A stretch of DNA of 64,000 bases. Origin: Bacteroidota bacterium (GTDB lineage: Bacteria > Bacteroidota > Bacteroidia > Chitinophagales > Saprospiraceae). The translations under genes and the position numbers were made by a program. Below, one piece after another: positions 92 through 49,332 of this stretch. Below the pieces are notes generated by a model, which saw only the letters and a list, made by a program, of their open reading frames with translations, did no database searches and was not told the DNA's origin. Position 1 is the first letter of the stretch. Every line of letters begins with the position of its first letter. The stretch spans positions 62,001-126,000 of the forward strand of contig JASBVF010000044.1 in the NCBI GenBank assembly GCA_030147525.1, given 5' to 3'.

Positions 92-169
92 GAGTAGGCC
101 GGTAGGCGAGCAGGCTGGCAGGCAAGTAAGCACGGCCTCCTACTCGCCTACCGGCTTACTTGCCTACTC
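92..169. repeat. Octad-repeat palindrome R1 (GTAGGC type)
   Basis: The left arm is five consecutive 8-mers: GAGTAGGC, CGGTAGGC, GAGCAGGC, TGGCAGGC, AAGTAAGC (92-131). The right arm, 140-169, is the inverted form (GCCTACCG, GCTTACTT, GCCTACTC units). The RNA would fold into a long imperfect hairpin. It ends 3 nt before the aroQ start codon, so it makes up essentially the whole aroQ leader. Related copies with the same unit lie at 26931-27034, 30970-30987 and 34331-34893. Confidence 0.85.
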
Positions 170-20713: not shown

Positions 20714-20774
20714 TTTTTGATAAAAACAAAGCCCCGGCAAGTTCGACCTGCCGGGGCTTTGTTTTTATCAAAAA
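20714..20774. terminator. Bidirectional terminator, 26-bp perfect stem
   Basis: A perfect 26-bp inverted repeat (20714-20739 and 20749-20774) with a 9-nt loop. The GC core is GCCCCGGCA, flanked by A-rich and T-rich outer arms. It serves both the M56 gene and the convergent SPOR gene, whose stop is 3 nt away. Confidence 0.93.
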
Positions 20775-26930: not shown

Positions 26931-27034
26931 GAAGTAGGCGAGTAGGCACGTAGGCCGGTAGGCGAGAAAGCGGACAGGTCAATTTTACTGCGGAGCTACT
27001 CGCCTACCGGCCTACGTGCCTACTCGCCTACTTC
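26931..27034. repeat. Octad-repeat palindrome R2, perfect 36-bp arms
   Basis: The left arm 26931-26966 and right arm 26999-27034 are exact reverse complements over 36 bp, separated by 32 bp. The left arm contains AAGTAGGC, GAGTAGGC, ACGTAGGC and CGGTAGGC in 8-bp register. It lies between two convergent genes and starts directly after the TGA of the radical SAM gene. The right arm contains the TAG stop (27028-27030) and last codons of the HD gene. It may act as a bidirectional terminator or a double-stranded RNA processing site. Confidence 0.93.
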
Positions 27035-32428: not shown

Positions 32429-32460
32429 AACTCAGTAACTCAATAACCCAATAACTCTTT
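32429..32460. repeat. Octad repeat (AACTCAAT type) in the ABC-F leader
   Basis: AACTCAGT, AACTCAAT, AACCCAAT and AACTCTTT run in exact 8-bp register and end 1 nt before the GTG start. It is single-armed; no inverted copy is visible upstream. The architecture matches the arms of the palindromes elsewhere. Confidence 0.7.
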
Positions 32461-34329: not shown

Positions 34330-34336
<7 letters not shown>

Positions 34337-34370
34337 GCGAGTAAGCCGGTAGGCCGGTAGGCGAGTAGGA
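34330..34370. repeat. Left arm R3 of the palindrome flanking the four-helix-bundle gene
   Basis: Five 8-mers in register: AAGTAGGC, GAGTAAGC, CGGTAGGC, CGGTAGGC, GAGTAGGA (34331-34370). This is the same five-unit organisation as R1. It contains the stop codon of the ABC-F gene. A 21-bp section (34349-34369) is the exact reverse complement of 34872-34892 on the other side of the four-helix-bundle gene. Confidence 0.9.
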
Positions 34371-34443
34371 GGTCGGGTTAAGTTTTTAAATATTTGACTA
34401 TCATGGAGTTAGTACTCAGTTTTGGTTTTTAAAAATCAAAACT

Positions 34444-34830
34444 ATGGACTATCGGAACCTGCACGTTTATCAGAAGGCTTTTGCCTTGGCGATGGCAATT
34501 TTTCACATCACAAAACGATTTCCGAAGGAGGAGTTGTTTGGTTTGACCGGCCAAATACGAAGGAGTTCGAGGGCCGTCTGTTCCAACTTTGCCGAAGGCT
34601 ACCGGAAACGCCAATACCAGCCACATTTTTTAAGCAAACTTTCGGACTGCGACATGGAAAATACAGAAACCCAGGTTTGGTTGGATTTTTCAAGAGCCTG
34701 TGAATACATCACAGAGGAAGAGCACAAAAATCTTTTTGAAAAAAGCCTCGACGTGGGTTCCGGTTTAAACTATATGATGAATAACCCCGAAAAATTCCTT
34801 CCGAAAAGTTTAAAACAGGCAAAAAAATGA
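34444..34830 (+). CDS. Four-helix-bundle protein (S23/IVP family, TIGR02436-like)
   Basis: 128 aa. It shows the family pattern: start MDYRNLHVYQKAFALAMAIFH, helix 2 LFGLTGQIRRSSRAVCSNFAEGY (the RRSS-x-x-x-x-NFAEG signature, about 36-58), a middle helix after FLSKLSDCDMENTETQVWLD, and a last helix EEEHKNLFEKSLDVGSGLNYMM. Relatives are encoded in 23S rRNA intervening sequences and resemble the Avd accessory protein of diversity-generating retroelements. They bind nucleic acid, but their role is not settled. The gene lies in the loop of a large inverted repeat (R3/R4) of the GTAGGC palindrome family. No reverse transcriptase is present in the window. Confidence 0.93.
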   Translation: MDYRNLHVYQKAFALAMAIFHITKRFPKEELFGLTGQIRRSSRAVCSNFAEGYRKRQYQPHFLSKLSDCDMENTETQVWLDFSRACEYITEEEHKNLFEKSLDVGSGLNYMMNNPEKFLPKSLKQAKK

Positions 34831-34854
34831 AATGCCCCTTGAATTTATGGGTAG

Positions 34855-34893
34855 CGCCTGCTTGCCTACTGCCTACTCGCCTACCGGCCTACT
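34855..34893. repeat. Right arm R4 of the palindrome flanking the four-helix-bundle gene
   Basis: Inverted units (GCCTACT, GCCTACTC, GCCTACCG, GCCTACT) with 34872-34892 exactly complementary to 34349-34369. It begins about 25 bp after the stop of the four-helix-bundle gene. An A-run and a small hairpin follow. Confidence 0.9.
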
Positions 34894-37438: not shown

Positions 37439-40400
37439 ATGATGCGTAACATTACTATTCTCTTACTCTTGCTACTGACGTTCTCCGCTTTTTCGCAAAA
37501 AGCAGAATTTCAGGGTAATCCGATCAAGTCGCTGGGAGATCCTGCCCTGGATGCTCAATTCAACCAGTGGGAGATTTATCAACTGGACATTCTTGCTTTC
37601 GACAACTTTGTCAAAAATGCCGGATCAAGCATGGAGTTCAGCCTGAAATTTGGCACTCAGAACTGGGATATCCAACTGGAGCCAAGAGATATTCGGGGGC
37701 CAAACTATGTGCTCTCCGTACTTTCTGACAAAGGTGTCCAATACCTGACTCCCGGGGAAAATATTACCTTCAGAGGGCAACTCCAGGGAAAAAACGGCGG
37801 AGCTGTCAGTCTGACTATTTACAAGGATTTTCTTTACGGGTTTGTCGAGAAAGGTGGCGACTACTTTTTTATCGAGCCGCTGTGGTACTTCAAGCCAGAT
37901 GCTCCGAAAGACAGATTTGTAATCTACGCAGCCTCTGATGTCAAGCCAAAACCCGGAGCCAAGTGTGGTTTTGATGAAATGTTGCAGCATGCCCCGCATG
38001 CTGAAGAATTGCTGGAAGGTCCGACAGTTGGTGCTGAGAAAATGGGCTGTAAGGAAGTAGACCTGGCTATTGCCTCCGATTTATCCATGTACAACAAGTA
38101 CGGCTCTGTATTCGCTGTTGAGTTTCACAACATCGGCGTAATGAACAATGTGCAGACCAACTACGACAACGAGTTCAACGATGAGTTGTCATTCGTGATC
38201 GTCGAGCAGTTTGTGGTTGAACCCCCGGCTACCGATCCATGGACGAACTCCACTAATGCTGCCGCATTACTGAATAGCTTTACTGCCTGGGGCCCTACCG
38301 GGTTTTCCCAGGTACATGATCTGGGCCAGCTTTGGACTGACCGTGACTTTCAGGGCGGAACCATTGGCATCGCATGGTTAAGCGCTGTATGTACTTCCAG
38401 CCGCTACCACTGCCTTCAGGATTTTTCATCTAATGCCAACCTGTTACGGGTGCTGACAGCCCACGAAATCGGGCACAACTTCAGTGCCACACATGATGCT
38501 TCCGGAAGCCCGACCATCATGGCCCCGGCTGTGAACAATACCAACAGTTGGTCGTCTCAGTCTATCAGCCAGATTAACAGCTATTACCCGACTCGGCCTT
38601 GTTTGACAAATTGTGCCTCTCTGCAGCCGCCTGTTGCCAGTTTCACTGCATCGCCAAGCTCAGGATGCGCACCGCTGGTCGTGACTTACTCGGACAACTC
38701 TCAAAACAGTCCGACCTCCTGGAACTGGACTTTCCCCGGAGGAAGCCCAAGCTCTTCCACCCAGCAAAACCCGACGGTAACCTATGCCACACCCGGCTCC
38801 TATAGTGCTACCCTGACGGTAACCAACGCTGCCGGCAGCAACTCTCAAACACAAAACGGCATCGTCAACGTACAGACCTCACCTACTTCATCCTTTACTT
38901 TTTCCAATGTAGGGCTGACGGTTATTTTTACAAATACATCGACGCCGGGAGCAACTAACTTTCTTTGGGATTTCGGAGATGGGAACACCAGCACACAGGA
39001 AAATCCGATTCACACTTACGCAGTGGATGGGTACTACACTGTGACGCTGTCTGCCAGCAATGCCTGCGGATCAATCCCGGCCAGCAGCGTAATTGCTGTT
39101 TTCACCACACCGACGGCAGGCTTCTTCGCTACGCCAACCTCAGGATGCGCAGGCATGACGGTTGCTTTTTCTGATCAAAGTTCATCTAATACTACCAACT
39201 GGAACTGGAGTTTCCCCGGAGGAACACCCTCCACTTCCACGCAGCAAAACCCGATCGTTACTTACGCCTCTCCGGGGACGTATTCCGTATCGCTGACTGC
39301 TTCGAACCCGGCTGGGTCCAATACTTTTTCACAACCGAACTACATCACGGTCAATACCATTCCCACGCCTGGATTCACTTACTCAGTGAGTGGAAATACG
39401 GTCACATTTACCAACAACTCGACCAACGCCACCAGTTACAGCTGGAACTTTGGTGATGGACAAACCAGCACTGCTGCGAATCCGACACATACCTATTCCG
39501 GCAATGGTACTTACACCGTCACACTGACAGCTACCAACAACTGCGGTCCGGCGACCACCTCTCAAACCGTTACGATCCTGCTGCCTCCAACAGCTGGGTT
39601 TACAGCCAGCACGACTTCCGGTTGTGCGCCGCTCACCGTTGAGTATAACAGCAGTACTTCCGAAAATGCAACGGCGTACGTCTGGTCATTTCCCGGTGGT
39701 ACGCCTTCCAACTCGGCATCGGCCAACCCGACGGTTGTTTACAATACGCCCGGTGTTTACAATGTAACATTGATTGTGTCAAACTCTGCGGGTAACGACA
39801 CACTTACCCAAACGAATTACATCAACGTTGCTCCGCAACCAACGCCAGGCTTTACCAGCAGCGTGAGCGGGCTGACGGCTACGTTTACCAATACCTCAAC
39901 CAATGCGACGAGTTACTTCTGGGATTTTGGCGACAGCCAAACAAGCACCCAAACCAATCCGACGCACACCTACGCCGAAGACGGCACCTACACGGTGACG
40001 CTGAGCGCTACAAATAACTGCGGAACGGTGACGACCACGCAAACCGTGACGATCGTAACACCGCCTACCGCTGGTTTTTCATCCAACGTAACTTCAGGCT
40101 GTGCACCGCTGACGGTTCAGTTTTCAAATGAATCTTCAGAGAATGCTACCGGGTTCGCATGGGAATTCCCCGGCGGAACGCCTGCAACTTCCTCAGTTGA
40201 AAATCCAACAGTTACCTACTCATCGGCAGGCTCTTACACTGTGACGCTGACCGTGACCAATGCTGCCGGCCAGAATACGATAACTCAAACGAATTACATC
40301 GTCGTCACCACCACGCCGGTAGCCGGGTTCAACGTTGCAACGAATAACGCAACGGCCACATTCACCAATACTTCCACCAACGCTACGAGCTACAACTGGG

Positions 40401-43204
40401 ACTTTGGCGATGGCCAGTCAAGTACCTCCTCCGATCCCGTACACACCTACGCCGAAGATGGTACCTACACGGTGACACTGAGCGCCACGAATAACTGCGG
40501 AACGGTGACGACCACGCAAACCGTAACGATCGTAACGCCGCCTACCGCTGGTTTTTCATCTAACGTAACTTCAGGTTGCGCACCGCTGACGGTTCAGTTT
40601 TCAAATGAATCATCAGAGAATGCCACCGGGTTCGAGTGGGAATTCCCCGGCGGAACGCCTGCAACTTCTACAGCTGAAAATCCAACCGTGACCTACTCAA
40701 CGGCAGGCTCCTACACTGTGACGCTGACCGTGACCAATGCTGCCGGGCAGAATACGACCACGGAAACGAACTACGTCGTTGTGTCGACGGTTCCGGCTGC
40801 CGGGTTCACTGCCACTACAAACGTGTTTGTGGCGAATTTCACCAATACGACTGCGAACGGTACGAGCTACAGCTGGGACTTTGGCGATGGTGAAACAAGC
40901 ACCTCCGCCAATCCGGTGCATACCTACGCCGCAGATGGTATCTACACGGTAACGCTGACGGCGACGAACGCCTGTGGCACGGATACATTCACGCAGGATG
41001 TTGAAATTACTTCACTGCCACAAGCTGGCTTTTCTGCCAGTGCAACCACCGGTTGTGCACCTTTCACCGTGCAGTTCAACGATCAATCGTCTTCTAACAC
41101 CACGGAATGGAACTGGAGCTTTCCCGGCGGTACGCCATCCAGCTCAACAGCCCAGAACCCGACTGTGACTTACAATGCTGTAGGCACCTACACCGTCACG
41201 CTGACAGTCAGCAACAGCTTGGGTGAAAACACCGTGACGCAGACAAACTACATCACCGTCAATACCACGCCAACTGCCGGTTTCACCAGCAGCACGAACT
41301 TGCTGACGGCTACTTTTGAAAATACTTCCGCCGGCGCAACCAGCTACGAGTGGGATTTTGGTGACGGTGAAACGAGTACCGAGGAAGATCCGTCGCATAC
41401 CTACGCCGAAGACGGCAACTACACCGTTACGCTTACGGCAACCAACGCATGCGGCTCTGTCACTTCCACACAGACAGTGGTAGTTGTTTCACTGCCAACG
41501 GCTGGCTTTTCTGCCAGTGCAACGGCCGGTTGTGCACCGTTTACCGTTCAGTTTACCAATGAGTCTTCTGAAAACGCCACTTCGTTTGCATGGCAATTCC
41601 CGGGTGGCATGCCTGCTACTTCCACAGCGGAAAACCCGTCGGTAACCTACTCAACAGCAGGGACCTACACTGTGACGTTGACCGTGAGCAACGCTGCCGG
41701 ACAGGATGTCGTCACCCAAACGGATCTGATCGTGGTCGATGATGTGCCTGTGGCTGGCTTCTCGGGTAGTGTAAACGAGCTGACGGTTACCTTCACCAAT
41801 AATACAACCAATGCGACCAGCTACGAGTGGAGCTTTGGCGATGGTGAAACGAGCACGGAAGAAAATCCGTCGCATACCTACGCCGAGGATGGAGTTTACG
41901 AAGTGATTTTGATCGCAACCAATGGATGTGGTTCCGTCACAGTGAAGGAAGTTTTCACCATCGTGACACCACCTACGGCAGGTTTCAGCGCTGTTGAAAC
42001 GACTGGCTGTGCTCCGTTTACGGTAGAATTCAGTAATGAATCCTCAGAGAATGCAGCGAGTTTCTCCTGGTCATTCCCCGGTGGCTCACCTGCTACCTCC
42101 ACGGAAGAAAACCCAGTAGTCACTTACAATGCAGCCGGTACGTACAGTGTTACGCTGACGGTTTCCAATGCTGCTGGCGATGATACTTTTACGCTGACGG
42201 ACTACGTATCGGTTAAACCGATGCCGGCTGCCAATTTCACTTTTGCAGTGAATGGCTCGACTGTCGATTTCACAAATACTTCCAGCAATGCGGCGAGCTA
42301 CGTTTGGAATTTCGGAGATGGCGAAAGCTCAACCGACCTGGATGCGCAGCATACCTACCAGATGGACGGCGTTTATACCGTGACGCTTACAGCCACCAAC
42401 GATTGTGGCAGCGTAACGGTAACCAAAACGGTAGTTATCGCTACCATGGGCCCGATCGCCGCATTCACGGCTTCAAATACAACCGGCTGCGCACCGCTGA
42501 CGGTGGTGTTTGAAAACCTGTCTTCTGCCAACTCCGAATCCTATGAATGGAGCTTCCCCGGTGGTGAACCTTCTACTTCAACGGCTGCTAACCCAACTGT
42601 TGTTTACAGTACACCGGGCGTGTACGATGTGACCCTGACGGCTATCAACGGGCAGGGTAGTAACACCGTCACGCAGACGAGCCTTGTGGTAGTCAACGGC
42701 GTTCCGTCAACCAGCTTTAACCATACCGTTGGTGACAGCGGCACCGTGACTTTCACCAACACTTCCACAGGAGCTACAACCTACAAGTGGGAATTTGGCG
42801 ACGGTGAAACCAGCACCGAGGAAAACCCGGTGCATACCTACTCGCAAAGTGGTGAATACATGGTCACGCTGACGGCAGAAAACGGATGCGGTTTCAGCAG
42901 CTCTACGATCACAGTTCAGGTGATGGTGACGAGCGTTGGTGAAATCCCCGGCATCAGTGAGTTCAACGTATTCCCGAACCCGAACAGCGGCCGTTTCACC
43001 ATGACGCTGAAGGGCGAGCCGCAGACTTCGTTGGAACTGAGCTTTACCAACGTACTCGGCCAGCGCCTGCTCAACGAAAAAGCAGACTTCCGCTCCGGCC
43101 AGATCAGCCGGGAGTTTTCATTCGGACAACTGCCTGCGGGCATGTACATCCTCCAGGTGAAATCCGGCGACAAAGCGATTTTCAGGAAACTGATTATAGA
43201 GTAA
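37439..43204 (+). CDS. T9SS-secreted reprolysin-like metalloprotease with 18 PKD domains
   Basis: 1921 aa with a signal peptide (ITILLLLLLTFSAFSQ). A propeptide-like region (about 20-190) is followed by an M12B-like zinc protease domain with H342-E-I-G-H346-N-F-S349-A-T-H352-D and Met-turn M361. The Gly of HExxHxxGxxH is replaced by Ser349. From about 395 to 1838 there are 18 PKD domains in nine alternating A-B pairs. A types have a Cys (SGCAPLTV) and SFPGG; B types have WDFGDG and an NxCG end. The last 80 residues (FNVFPNPNSGRF to KLIIE) are a type A T9SS sorting domain. It is probably exported and attached to the surface as a protease or adhesin, with PKD domains forming a long stalk. Segments at 39968 and 40445 are near-identical, a recent 477-bp duplication. 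Confidence 0.92.
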   Translation: MMRNITILLLLLLTFSAFSQKAEFQGNPIKSLGDPALDAQFNQWEIYQLDILAFDNFVKNAGSSMEFSLKFGTQNWDIQLEPRDIRGPNYVLSVLSDKGVQYLTPGENITFRGQLQGKNGGAVSLTIYKDFLYGFVEKGGDYFFIEPLWYFKPDAPKDRFVIYAASDVKPKPGAKCGFDEMLQHAPHAEELLEGPTVGAEKMGCKEVDLAIASDLSMYNKYGSVFAVEFHNIGVMNNVQTNYDNEFNDELSFVIVEQFVVEPPATDPWTNSTNAAALLNSFTAWGPTGFSQVHDLGQLWTDRDFQGGTIGIAWLSAVCTSSRYHCLQDFSSNANLLRVLTAHEIGHNFSATHDASGSPTIMAPAVNNTNSWSSQSISQINSYYPTRPCLTNCASLQPPVASFTASPSSGCAPLVVTYSDNSQNSPTSWNWTFPGGSPSSSTQQNPTVTYATPGSYSATLTVTNAAGSNSQTQNGIVNVQTSPTSSFTFSNVGLTVIFTNTSTPGATNFLWDFGDGNTSTQENPIHTYAVDGYYTVTLSASNACGSIPASSVIAVFTTPTAGFFATPTSGCAGMTVAFSDQSSSNTTNWNWSFPGGTPSTSTQQNPIVTYASPGTYSVSLTASNPAGSNTFSQPNYITVNTIPTPGFTYSVSGNTVTFTNNSTNATSYSWNFGDGQTSTAANPTHTYSGNGTYTVTLTATNNCGPATTSQTVTILLPPTAGFTASTTSGCAPLTVEYNSSTSENATAYVWSFPGGTPSNSASANPTVVYNTPGVYNVTLIVSNSAGNDTLTQTNYINVAPQPTPGFTSSVSGLTATFTNTSTNATSYFWDFGDSQTSTQTNPTHTYAEDGTYTVTLSATNNCGTVTTTQTVTIVTPPTAGFSSNVTSGCAPLTVQFSNESSENATGFAWEFPGGTPATSSVENPTVTYSSAGSYTVTLTVTNAAGQNTITQTNYIVVTTTPVAGFNVATNNATATFTNTSTNATSYNWDFGDGQSSTSSDPVHTYAEDGTYTVTLSATNNCGTVTTTQTVTIVTPPTAGFSSNVTSGCAPLTVQFSNESSENATGFEWEFPGGTPATSTAENPTVTYSTAGSYTVTLTVTNAAGQNTTTETNYVVVSTVPAAGFTATTNVFVANFTNTTANGTSYSWDFGDGETSTSANPVHTYAADGIYTVTLTATNACGTDTFTQDVEITSLPQAGFSASATTGCAPFTVQFNDQSSSNTTEWNWSFPGGTPSSSTAQNPTVTYNAVGTYTVTLTVSNSLGENTVTQTNYITVNTTPTAGFTSSTNLLTATFENTSAGATSYEWDFGDGETSTEEDPSHTYAEDGNYTVTLTATNACGSVTSTQTVVVVSLPTAGFSASATAGCAPFTVQFTNESSENATSFAWQFPGGMPATSTAENPSVTYSTAGTYTVTLTVSNAAGQDVVTQTDLIVVDDVPVAGFSGSVNELTVTFTNNTTNATSYEWSFGDGETSTEENPSHTYAEDGVYEVILIATNGCGSVTVKEVFTIVTPPTAGFSAVETTGCAPFTVEFSNESSENAASFSWSFPGGSPATSTEENPVVTYNAAGTYSVTLTVSNAAGDDTFTLTDYVSVKPMPAANFTFAVNGSTVDFTNTSSNAASYVWNFGDGESSTDLDAQHTYQMDGVYTVTLTATNDCGSVTVTKTVVIATMGPIAAFTASNTTGCAPLTVVFENLSSANSESYEWSFPGGEPSTSTAANPTVVYSTPGVYDVTLTAINGQGSNTVTQTSLVVVNGVPSTSFNHTVGDSGTVTFTNTSTGATTYKWEFGDGETSTEENPVHTYSQSGEYMVTLTAENGCGFSSSTITVQVMVTSVGEIPGISEFNVFPNPNSGRFTMTLKGEPQTSLELSFTNVLGQRLLNEKADFRSGQISREFSFGQLPAGMYILQVKSGDKAIFRKLIIE

Positions 43205-48669: not shown

Positions 48670-48692
48670 GATATAAATATATTTGAGAATTT

Positions 48693-48762
48693 GAGTGTTT
48701 GTGTGTTTGAATGTTCGTGTGTTTTACTCAAACACATGAACACGCAGACCTTCGAACACTCC
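48693..48762. repeat. Octad-repeat palindrome (GTGTTTG type) between atpH and atpA
   Basis: Left arm: GAGTGTTT, GTGTGTTT, GAATGTTC, GTGTGTTT (48693-48724). Right arm: ACTCAAAC, ACATGAAC, ACGCAGAC, CTTCGAAC, ACTCC (48726-48762). It ends at the base before the atpH stop codon. Same unit type as the leader repeat of the HD gene at 28249-28325. Confidence 0.88.
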
Positions 48763-49332
48763 TTATTGCGCTAAAATTTGCGAGATATAAAGGTTATCCT
48801 TAAATTCTTTTTTTAACAATGACAGCTTGTGCGCCACACTTGCGTCGTAAAGTTTGTCTTCAAATTCAATAACAAAACCGCCAATCAGGTTTGGATCAAC
48901 CTTGGCAATAAGGTCCACGTTTTGATCGGTCGCTTTACTTGCCAACAGTTTCTGGCGGATATTTTCGATGGTGCTGTCGCTCAGCTTGGAAGCAGTAACA
49001 AGGTTGACAGTTGAAATCTTCTTGAGGCGCTTGTACTGTGTGATGAATTCCTCAGCTATTTCGATCAGACCGGCTTCCCGGCCTTTTCTTAGCAGGATAT
49101 TCAGAAACGCCATGGTCAGTTCGTCAGACTTTTCTTTGAACAGCTTGTTAAAAATCTGCTGCTTCTTGTCAGCCTTGATCACCGGGCTTTTAAGCATCAG
49201 CATGAAGTCCCTGTTTTTAGTGACCTCCCGGAAAGACTGAATGTCTTCCAGCACCCGCTCCAGCTTGCCCCTCTCATTTGCGAGGTCAATCAGCGACTTG
49301 GCATACCTTGTGGCTACTCTTTGATTACTCAT
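48763..49332 (-). CDS. atpH: F1F0 ATP synthase subunit delta
   Basis: 189 aa (family about 175-185). Peripheral stalk subunit joining alpha to the b dimer. N-terminal helical bundle QRVATRYAKSLIDLANERGKLERVLEDI. The C-terminal part, KVDPNLIGGFVIEFEDKLYDASVAHKLSLLKKEF, is the diagnostic delta/OSCP signature. It lies between atpF and atpA, separated from both by repeat palindromes rather than by the usual short overlaps. Confidence 0.96.
   Translation of the reverse strand: MSNQRVATRYAKSLIDLANERGKLERVLEDIQSFREVTKNRDFMLMLKSPVIKADKKQQIFNKLFKEKSDELTMAFLNILLRKGREAGLIEIAEEFITQYKRLKKISTVNLVTASKLSDSTIENIRQKLLASKATDQNVDLIAKVDPNLIGGFVIEFEDKLYDASVAHKLSLLKKEFKDNLYISQILAQ

Follow-up and report, generated by a model that had tools for sequence, protein, structure and literature searches.

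The S23/IVP gene of the window and its inverted arms

The window, a stretch of 64,000 nucleotides on contig JASBVF010000044.1 of a Bacteroidota bacterium (Saprospiraceae), contains a gene for an S23/IVP four-helix-bundle protein, which is enclosed by a pair of inverted arms composed of tandem copies of the unit GTAGGCNN (Table 1). The S23 protein reached 101.5 bits with PF05635 (cut-off 33.8), and its profile matches comprised PF05635 and bAvd only. Both arms, R3 and R4, share a perfect inverted match of 21 bp (34349-34369 / 34872-34892), and the ABC-F-like gene upstream has its stop codon (34334-34336) inside R3. The initial annotation had described these five-unit arms as well as two palindromes without a gene (R1 and R2), and both were found as described, with the same unit in all of them. 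Likewise, the layout of a 23S rRNA intervening sequence (IVS) placed between protein genes was borne out, the neighbors being an ABC-F-like and an Hsp20-like open reading frame (ORF). No Rfam matches were obtained in the window, and in the predicted RNA fold of the whole element the arms are paired (z -5.3).

Table 1. Position of the S23 gene, its arms and the gene-less palindromes in the window
Feature	Coordinates	Strand	Remarks
Gene-less palindrome R1, GTAGGCNN unit as in the arms of the window S23 gene	92..169		closest own S23 arm: L001
Gene-less palindrome, GGATTGAA units as at L007, a further S23 gene of this genome	18522..18601		
Gene-less palindrome R2, GTAGGCNN unit as in the arms of the window S23 gene	26931..27034		closest own S23 arm: L001
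Gene-less palindrome, GTGTTTGG units, matching no S23 arm of this genome	28250..28324		
5' arm (R3), GTAGGCNN unit, 8 bp, 4.8 copies	34332..34369	+	tandem array
S23/IVP four-helix-bundle gene, 128 aa	34444..34830	+	PF05635 E 3.6e-29; TIGR02436 E 4.9e-26
3' arm (R4), inverted GTAGGCNN units, 5.0 copies	34855..34893	+	tandem array
Imperfect gene-less palindrome, TTTGAGTG-like units	48682..48763		by eye; missed by palindrome scan

GTAGGC, proposed before as the repeat word, occurred 41 times in the window compared to 15.8 +/- 4.1 in shuffled sequences, and none of 100 shuffles was as high. It represents one unit, while as a rule each S23 gene tends to own a unit. GTAGGCCGGTAGGC was found 67 times in the genome and not once when read backwards, while it was missing from all 13 genomes of the same genus and present in one of 16 other relatives. 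Judging from these counts, the spread of the GTAGGCNN unit in this lineage seems to be recent. Matches of GTAGGCCGGTAGGC also lie within about 600 bases of the ends of contigs C1, C3, C6, C28, C31, C54 and C57, and the repeats may have caused these assembly breaks.

Among the gene-less palindromes, R2 comprises 36-bp perfectly complementary arms and a 32-nt loop. Four clusters of inverted 14-mers were determined in the window (20714-20774 not periodic), compared to none in mirror-image controls. Judged by eye, gene-less palindromes of different units have no loop motif in common.

Unit-repeat arms at S23 genes of this and other genomes

All seven PF05635 genes of the genome lie within inverted arms that repeat every 7-8 nt, the unit being different for each gene (GTAGGCNN, GGGGTGAAAGGTTTA, AATTAGTGAATTGGTA, GATTGCAGATT, AGTGAGAG, AATGTAGA and GGATTGAA). 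The arm scores, obtained by aligning the 5' flank locally to the reversed 3' flank (threshold 14), ranged from 21 to 63.5. Six of the seven genes stand between two same-strand genes, including neighbors which we take, from their translations, to be nqrB/nqrC, preT/preA and lysS/ddl. The window was scanned together with 400 kb of contig C54 for inverted arms that are periodic and enclose 100-1500 nt; this yielded both S23 genes, two further hairpin pairings and one T-rich pair. The two further pairings occur among three hairpins around the S23 gene of C54 and also span the neighboring nqrC-like gene. This S23 gene (L003, 33410-34773) lies in the nqr operon with a complete hairpin on each side, the loop of one being an inverted copy of the other loop; the third hairpin is located about 700 bp off.

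In larger samples, arms of at least 14 were determined for 61 of 111 S23 loci compared to 27 of 1319 mismatched pairs, for 15 of 20 further loci from three relatives, and for 23 of 29 loci from six named genomes (Cyanobacteriota, Planctomycetota and Bacteroidota) compared to 22 of 812 mismatched pairs. The initial annotation had suggested this check in related genomes and had taken arms missing from all other copies as counter-evidence; clearly, other copies do carry arms. The 111 loci comprise 33 of the 36 best-scoring loci of this genome and its relatives and 78 of the best 80 matches to the protein L040, five loci having been dropped because of short flanks. For this set and the 29-locus set, including their controls, only 250 bp beside the gene were used. 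The 111 loci include three with broken frames (L057, L079 and L150), for which the 3' flank was taken within the gene, and count both L040 and L075, which are one locus; L075 was left out of the same-site arm, arm-protein correlation, unit-sharing and array analyses. The strands of L064 and L065 were set by the open frame. From the six named genomes 30 of 35 matches were fetched and 29 tested, six of these being the loci through which the genomes were named. An earlier mismatched-pair control contained one very high value of 272.5.

In the Nostoc genome, all seven tested S23 loci (of nine matches) reached 14, with seven units. Among the plasmid loci, which represent eight of 28 records (seven cyanobacterial, one Riemerella), seven scored at least 20 and the eighth 11. 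The association of S23 genes with unit-repeat arms is real and widespread. Nonetheless, arms can be missing: the closest aligned homologue of the window S23 (L053, 59% identical) showed no matching arms (score 7.5) and an array on one side, and the next one (L060, 54%) had arms of another unit with a score of 27.5.

Tandem arrays were found in 168 of about 280 S23 flanks compared to four of 267 stretches at a distance of 480-700 bp, a control which is largely coding. Their period was 7 in 131 and 8 in 29 cases. The 5' arm is biased towards G, with 877 G compared to 310 C at 74 S23 loci and 508 compared to 172 in 64 palindromes. Two regularities were considered and are not claimed. A core-plus-spacer grammar of period-7 units would place the variable positions side by side; two such positions were adjacent in 18 of 30 arrays (10 expected), but runs of three were seen in 6 of 28 (5.6 expected) and runs of four in 7 of 22 (4.4 expected), with small numbers for period 8. 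An array of five units per protein pentamer was considered because the array lengths have their mode at 4.5 units (35 of 168), but short arrays are cut off by the score threshold and the tail extends to 30.5 units. A different type of arm was observed at L380 (Planctomycetales bacterium 10988), where S23 lies in long inverted arms (~107 nt aligned, score 63) with little tandem structure.

Change of the arms and covariation of unit and protein

In 16 site groups comprising 53 loci, S23 is located between the same two genes in different genomes. Of the same-site pairs with 50-75% S23 identity and arms at both loci, 12 of 18 had no common unit; for this analysis L083 was placed by eye in the group of L093. 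At one junction in eight Bacteroidota genomes the units included TGTGAGC, GGTATGA, TCAGCTA, TTGAGAA and TTAGCGG, with arms of at least 14 in six of the eight. Two plasmid loci carry S23 between cas6 and cas4: L067 of Pseudanabaena, where the arms consist of TTAGCNN, and L069 of Anabaena, where they consist of ACAGGTG. This placement may be the reason why a CRISPR survey lists the 23S rRNA IVP, which is named in one of its figure legends (PMC10910872).

The gene itself stays at its site. The mean S23 identity was 0.66 at the same site compared to 0.45 otherwise, and 41 of 53 loci had their nearest S23 relative at the same site; the other 12 may originate from replacement, separate insertion or old divergence. 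A replacement of S23 is likely for L131 (Adhaeribacter): this locus is at a Bacteroidota site, but its unit is of the TTAGC type and its S23 protein falls, with weak support (84/89), among those of cyanobacteria. The ratio of nonsynonymous to synonymous substitution rates (dN/dS) was 0.03-0.30 in 37 of 45 same-site pairs above 62% identity, namely the 37 that gave a ratio, and these ratios are rough due to many high dS values. At the level of codon comparison, this shows that S23 is under purifying selection and works as a protein. S23 proteins are mildly basic (median isoelectric point 8.8, n=138), and the solved relatives 2gsc, which is XCC0516 of Xanthomonas, and 2rld comprise five chains each; PMC4990558 describes the Xanthomonas S23 protein as a homopentamer and the function of S23 proteins as not known. 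A search of a defence-gene library with four S23 proteins gave no match.

Within a locus the two arms are more alike than between species: they reached 14 at 31 of 53 loci, while the comparison of a 5' arm with the 3' arm of another same-site locus reached it in 48 of 174 cases, mainly in site groups with unchanged unit. Such a pattern would also be expected from DNA copying of passive repeats, where the arrays would arise and be matched through slippage and template switching, and S23 would tolerate or attract them without having a role. The missing sign of selected RNA pairing (see below) agrees with this explanation as well. It does not account, however, for the enrichment of arrays directly beside S23 compared to the largely coding control, nor for a unit that follows the protein across phyla beyond the saturation of silent sites, and we consider it quite improbable.

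This covariation was determined for 86 armed loci. The number of shared arm 5-mers rises with S23 identity after removal of the GC difference (r 0.13, p 0.002), and does so more strongly across phyla (1585 pairs, r 0.21, p 0.001), the phylum labels being assigned by hand from record titles and unlabelled relatives being counted as Bacteroidota, based on the identity of L040, from a genome of the window's order, with the Bacteroidetes contig L075. For cross-phylum pairs at different sites, a common unit was found in 16 of 923 pairs below 0.40 identity, 15 of 442 at 0.40-0.50, 34 of 169 at 0.50-0.60 and 34 of 51 at 0.60-0.75. The highest bin comprises 15 loci of Planctomycetota, Cyanobacteriota and Bacteroidota as well as a single Chloroflexota locus with a short arm. 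These loci form 79 cross-phylum pairs, in which the silent sites are saturated, with a median proportion of differing silent sites (pS) of 0.86 and no dS below 1, and therefore an unselected repeat should have lost its word. The covariation of unit and protein across phyla is the strongest sign that S23 may read its unit, and a specific tie between the protein and its arms is indirectly supported.

The arms could also act at the level of RNA. S23 has the same strand as its codirectional neighbors at 71 loci and the opposite strand at 13 (84 of 120 loci, p 8e-11), although seven of the 13 belong to one site group and the counts are not independent. In an explanation by RNA processing only, RNase III would cut the arm stem in the operon transcript and thereby free the S23 message, as in the 23S IVS; the protein would be inactive on its arms and the gene-less palindromes would be copies that lost the gene. 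This explanation agrees with the sense orientation, with the paired arms in the predicted RNA fold, and with the Coxiella IVS, for which PMC4990558 reports cleavage by RNase III within a stem that has heptamers next to it. On the other hand, G-U compatible mismatches in the arms showed no excess over their mirror types (146 compared to 156 at 108 loci, and 84 compared to 98 in an earlier test of 74 loci), so that a wobble asymmetry as a sign of selected RNA pairing was negative in both tests. Furthermore, RNA processing would leave both the unit that follows the protein and the gene-less copies at many sites unexplained, and as the sole role of the arms it is unlikely. Since no G-U excess was found, copying at the DNA level is the more likely process by which matching arms would be kept, although RNase III may process the arms as well.

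Gene-less palindromes, possible mobility and the proposed action of S23

In a sample of 464 kb of this genome, 26 gene-less palindromes were counted, two palindromes beside the S23 gene of L003 having been dropped beforehand. For 17 of the 26, the match to the arms of one of the genome's seven S23 genes was better than in every one of 1000 draws of seven foreign sets (from 79 sets), and six of the seven S23 genes have matching gene-less copies. One of the 17 matches, at C54 325285, is AT-rich and may be due to chance. As the initial annotation had proposed, the gene-carrying copies are likely masters and the short palindromes their relatives. In a survey of 14 genomes, which gave 64 palindromes compared to two in mirror controls, the number of S23 genes correlated with the number of palindromes per 100 kb (Spearman 0.84, p 1.6e-4).

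The content of two junctions was compared among relatives. The nqrB|nqrC junction is closed in G002, contains a gene-less hairpin in G001 (nqrB 92% identical) and comprises hairpin, S23 and hairpin in this genome; the loop of the G001 hairpin is nearly that of a hairpin in this genome. A paralogous junction carries a hairpin of the same family in this genome, a hairpin of another unit in G008, single arrays in G007 and G011, a long region with another inverted repeat in G010 and no insert in G009 and G001. This shows repeated gain or loss. S23 could be lost between the direct repeats formed by two hairpins, which would leave one gene-less hairpin. The palindromes could instead be regulatory sites, i.e. 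terminators or binding sites by which S23 controls the flanking genes. Their position at operon junctions and stop codons and the purifying selection on S23 would suit such a role, but neither the 67 matches of GTAGGCCGGTAGGC here, compared to none in the same-genus genomes, nor the free variation in the content of one junction among relatives is in line with it, leaving this the faintest of chances.

Another source of mobility would be a separate enzyme, with S23 serving as a reverse transcriptase cofactor like Avd of the diversity-generating retroelements, or with palindromes of the REP type being moved by a Y1 transposase (RAYT). PF05635 is homologous to Avd, a four-helix-bundle protein, a similarity also pointed out in PMC10053308, and matches were found for Y1_Tnp in 25 and for RVT_1 in 14 of 30 genomes. 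Compared to the Avd profiles, however, the window S23 remained below the cut-offs (NF033474 29.3 bits, cut-off 80; PF22296 36.8 bits, cut-off 40), and in contrast to a diversity-generating retroelement no reverse transcriptase adjoins it. The only RVT_1 match of this genome lies on contig C33 (the window is on C52), and its four Y1_Tnp matches are all outside the S23 element. With the two profiles searched, RVT_1 was not detected in 16 of 30 genomes, including G012 with 16 S23 genes, G003 and G008 with eight and G004 with seven, all at least 98% complete, and Y1_Tnp was not detected in five of 30, including the S23-bearing G021 (6 S23 genes, 98% complete), G013, G002 and G025. Both enzymes were thus rejected as needed partners. 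As a general need, such an enzyme is already refuted, unless the enzymes are too diverged for the RVT_1 and Y1_Tnp profiles, and this explanation is very improbable. The likeness to the REPIN-RAYT system, a master gene with dispersed palindromes sharing its flanks (17 of 26 here), is one of analogy only; the S23 element contains no Y1 transposase, and its arms are tandem arrays of a varying word. A classical REP arrangement, unlike the S23 arms, was observed by eye at L178 (G009, after a lysS-like gene), where a hairpin with a GTAG foot stands before a RAYT-like gene.

Altogether, we incline to the reading that S23 recognizes its unit, with an action both on the arms around its gene and, in trans, on copies that lack the gene. 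The element consists of one gene and an inverted pair of arms made of a tandem 7-8 nt unit. Since it is mostly placed between codirectional genes and on their strand, it would be readable from the host transcript. The S23 protein, a pentamer in the solved relative, would recognize the unit of its own arms either as hairpin RNA or as extruded DNA, as suggested by the covariation. It would promote the copying or upkeep of the arms, which would explain why both arms change their unit jointly while the gene stays. Based on unit matching and copy numbers, gene-less palindromes that share the unit could be its non-autonomous derivatives, on which it would also act in trans. Judged from the sequence comparisons, the matching of protein and unit is supported, and action in trans and spreading are probable.

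Several observations weigh against this reading. Depending on the sample, a fifth to half of the S23 genes have weak, one-sided or no arms, and 9 of the 26 gene-less palindromes match no own S23 arm. Of the 15 loci mentioned, on which the signal of protein and unit above 60% identity rests, 12 carry TTAGC units. Genome size confounds the density correlation and alone gives 0.70 (partial rank value 0.72); the correlation decreases to 0.66 (p 0.04) without the other same-genus genomes, and for S23 genes per Mb the value is 0.46 (p 0.10). S23 is also not sufficient, since 100-200 kb of three genomes that have 5-6 S23 genes were free of gene-less palindromes and a fourth genome showed one. Finally, S23 has no known enzyme domain, so that the copying step would need host enzymes.

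A close known counterpart is the 23S IVS. For Coxiella, PMC4990558 reports an S23 ORF, a 28-bp terminal stem, excision by RNase III and GACAGAT heptamers 5' of the ORF, which is thought to be decaying and not produced. A sense-strand S23 ORF within inverted terminal repeats is thus common to both, with heptamers before the ORF in Coxiella, and the window element shares with the IVS the S23/IVP ORF and the stem-forming inverted repeats (21 bp here). In contrast, the window element lies among protein genes without a 23S rRNA gene, each S23 gene tends to have a different unit, and palindromes that share a unit but lack the gene are scattered over the genome; moreover, the S23 genes here are under selection, unlike the decaying ORF depicted for Coxiella. 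By analogy, the rRNA intervening sequences look like an rRNA-borne form of the S23 element, and those with an S23 ORF would be such elements settled in rRNA genes.

The arms also resemble published heptamer arrays. PMC4692102 describes GGGAATC heptamers in Xanthomonas with convergent inverted pairs (70 and 75 cases) and GGGGA(C/T)T heptamers in Nostoc with few inverted pairs, and PMC4679880 describes TAACTGA heptamers in Beggiatoaceae, cyanobacteria and Bacteroidetes. Like the arms, these are tandem 7-nt units, mostly intergenic, while the window arms have a period of 8; they are presented without an S23 gene, whereas here S23 genes lie within such arms. A term search of both texts for S23 or four helix gave no hit, and no report joining S23 genes to unit-repeat arms was apparent among the papers listed in searches of the open-licence literature. 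We tentatively propose, with doubts prevailing, that S23 elements form a distinct cross-phylum class with one gene, of which the heptamer DNA of cyanobacteria, Xanthomonas and Bacteroidota would largely be gene-less progeny and the rRNA IVS a branch. In this proposal, a small non-enzymatic pentamer might read the 7-8 nt word that recurs in its arms and drive the spread and joint rewriting of palindromes with this word.

The data join S23 proteins, which have no known function, to scattered heptamer arrays, which have no known maker, and suggest a simple rule: close S23 proteins would have the same repeated word and distant ones different words. If S23, which brings along neither transposase nor reverse transcriptase, were able to spread or rewrite repeats, this would be a new route by which short sequences multiply in genomes. 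The natural pairs of protein and word from genomes could serve the study of nucleic acid reading by small proteins.

Two further repeats were observed in the window. A lone array of AACTCAAT-like units, with no partner arm nearby as judged by eye, lies just before the ABC-F-like gene (32429-32457). At 39875-41136, a 477-bp coding unit occurs in direct repeats, as in a large repetitive surface protein.
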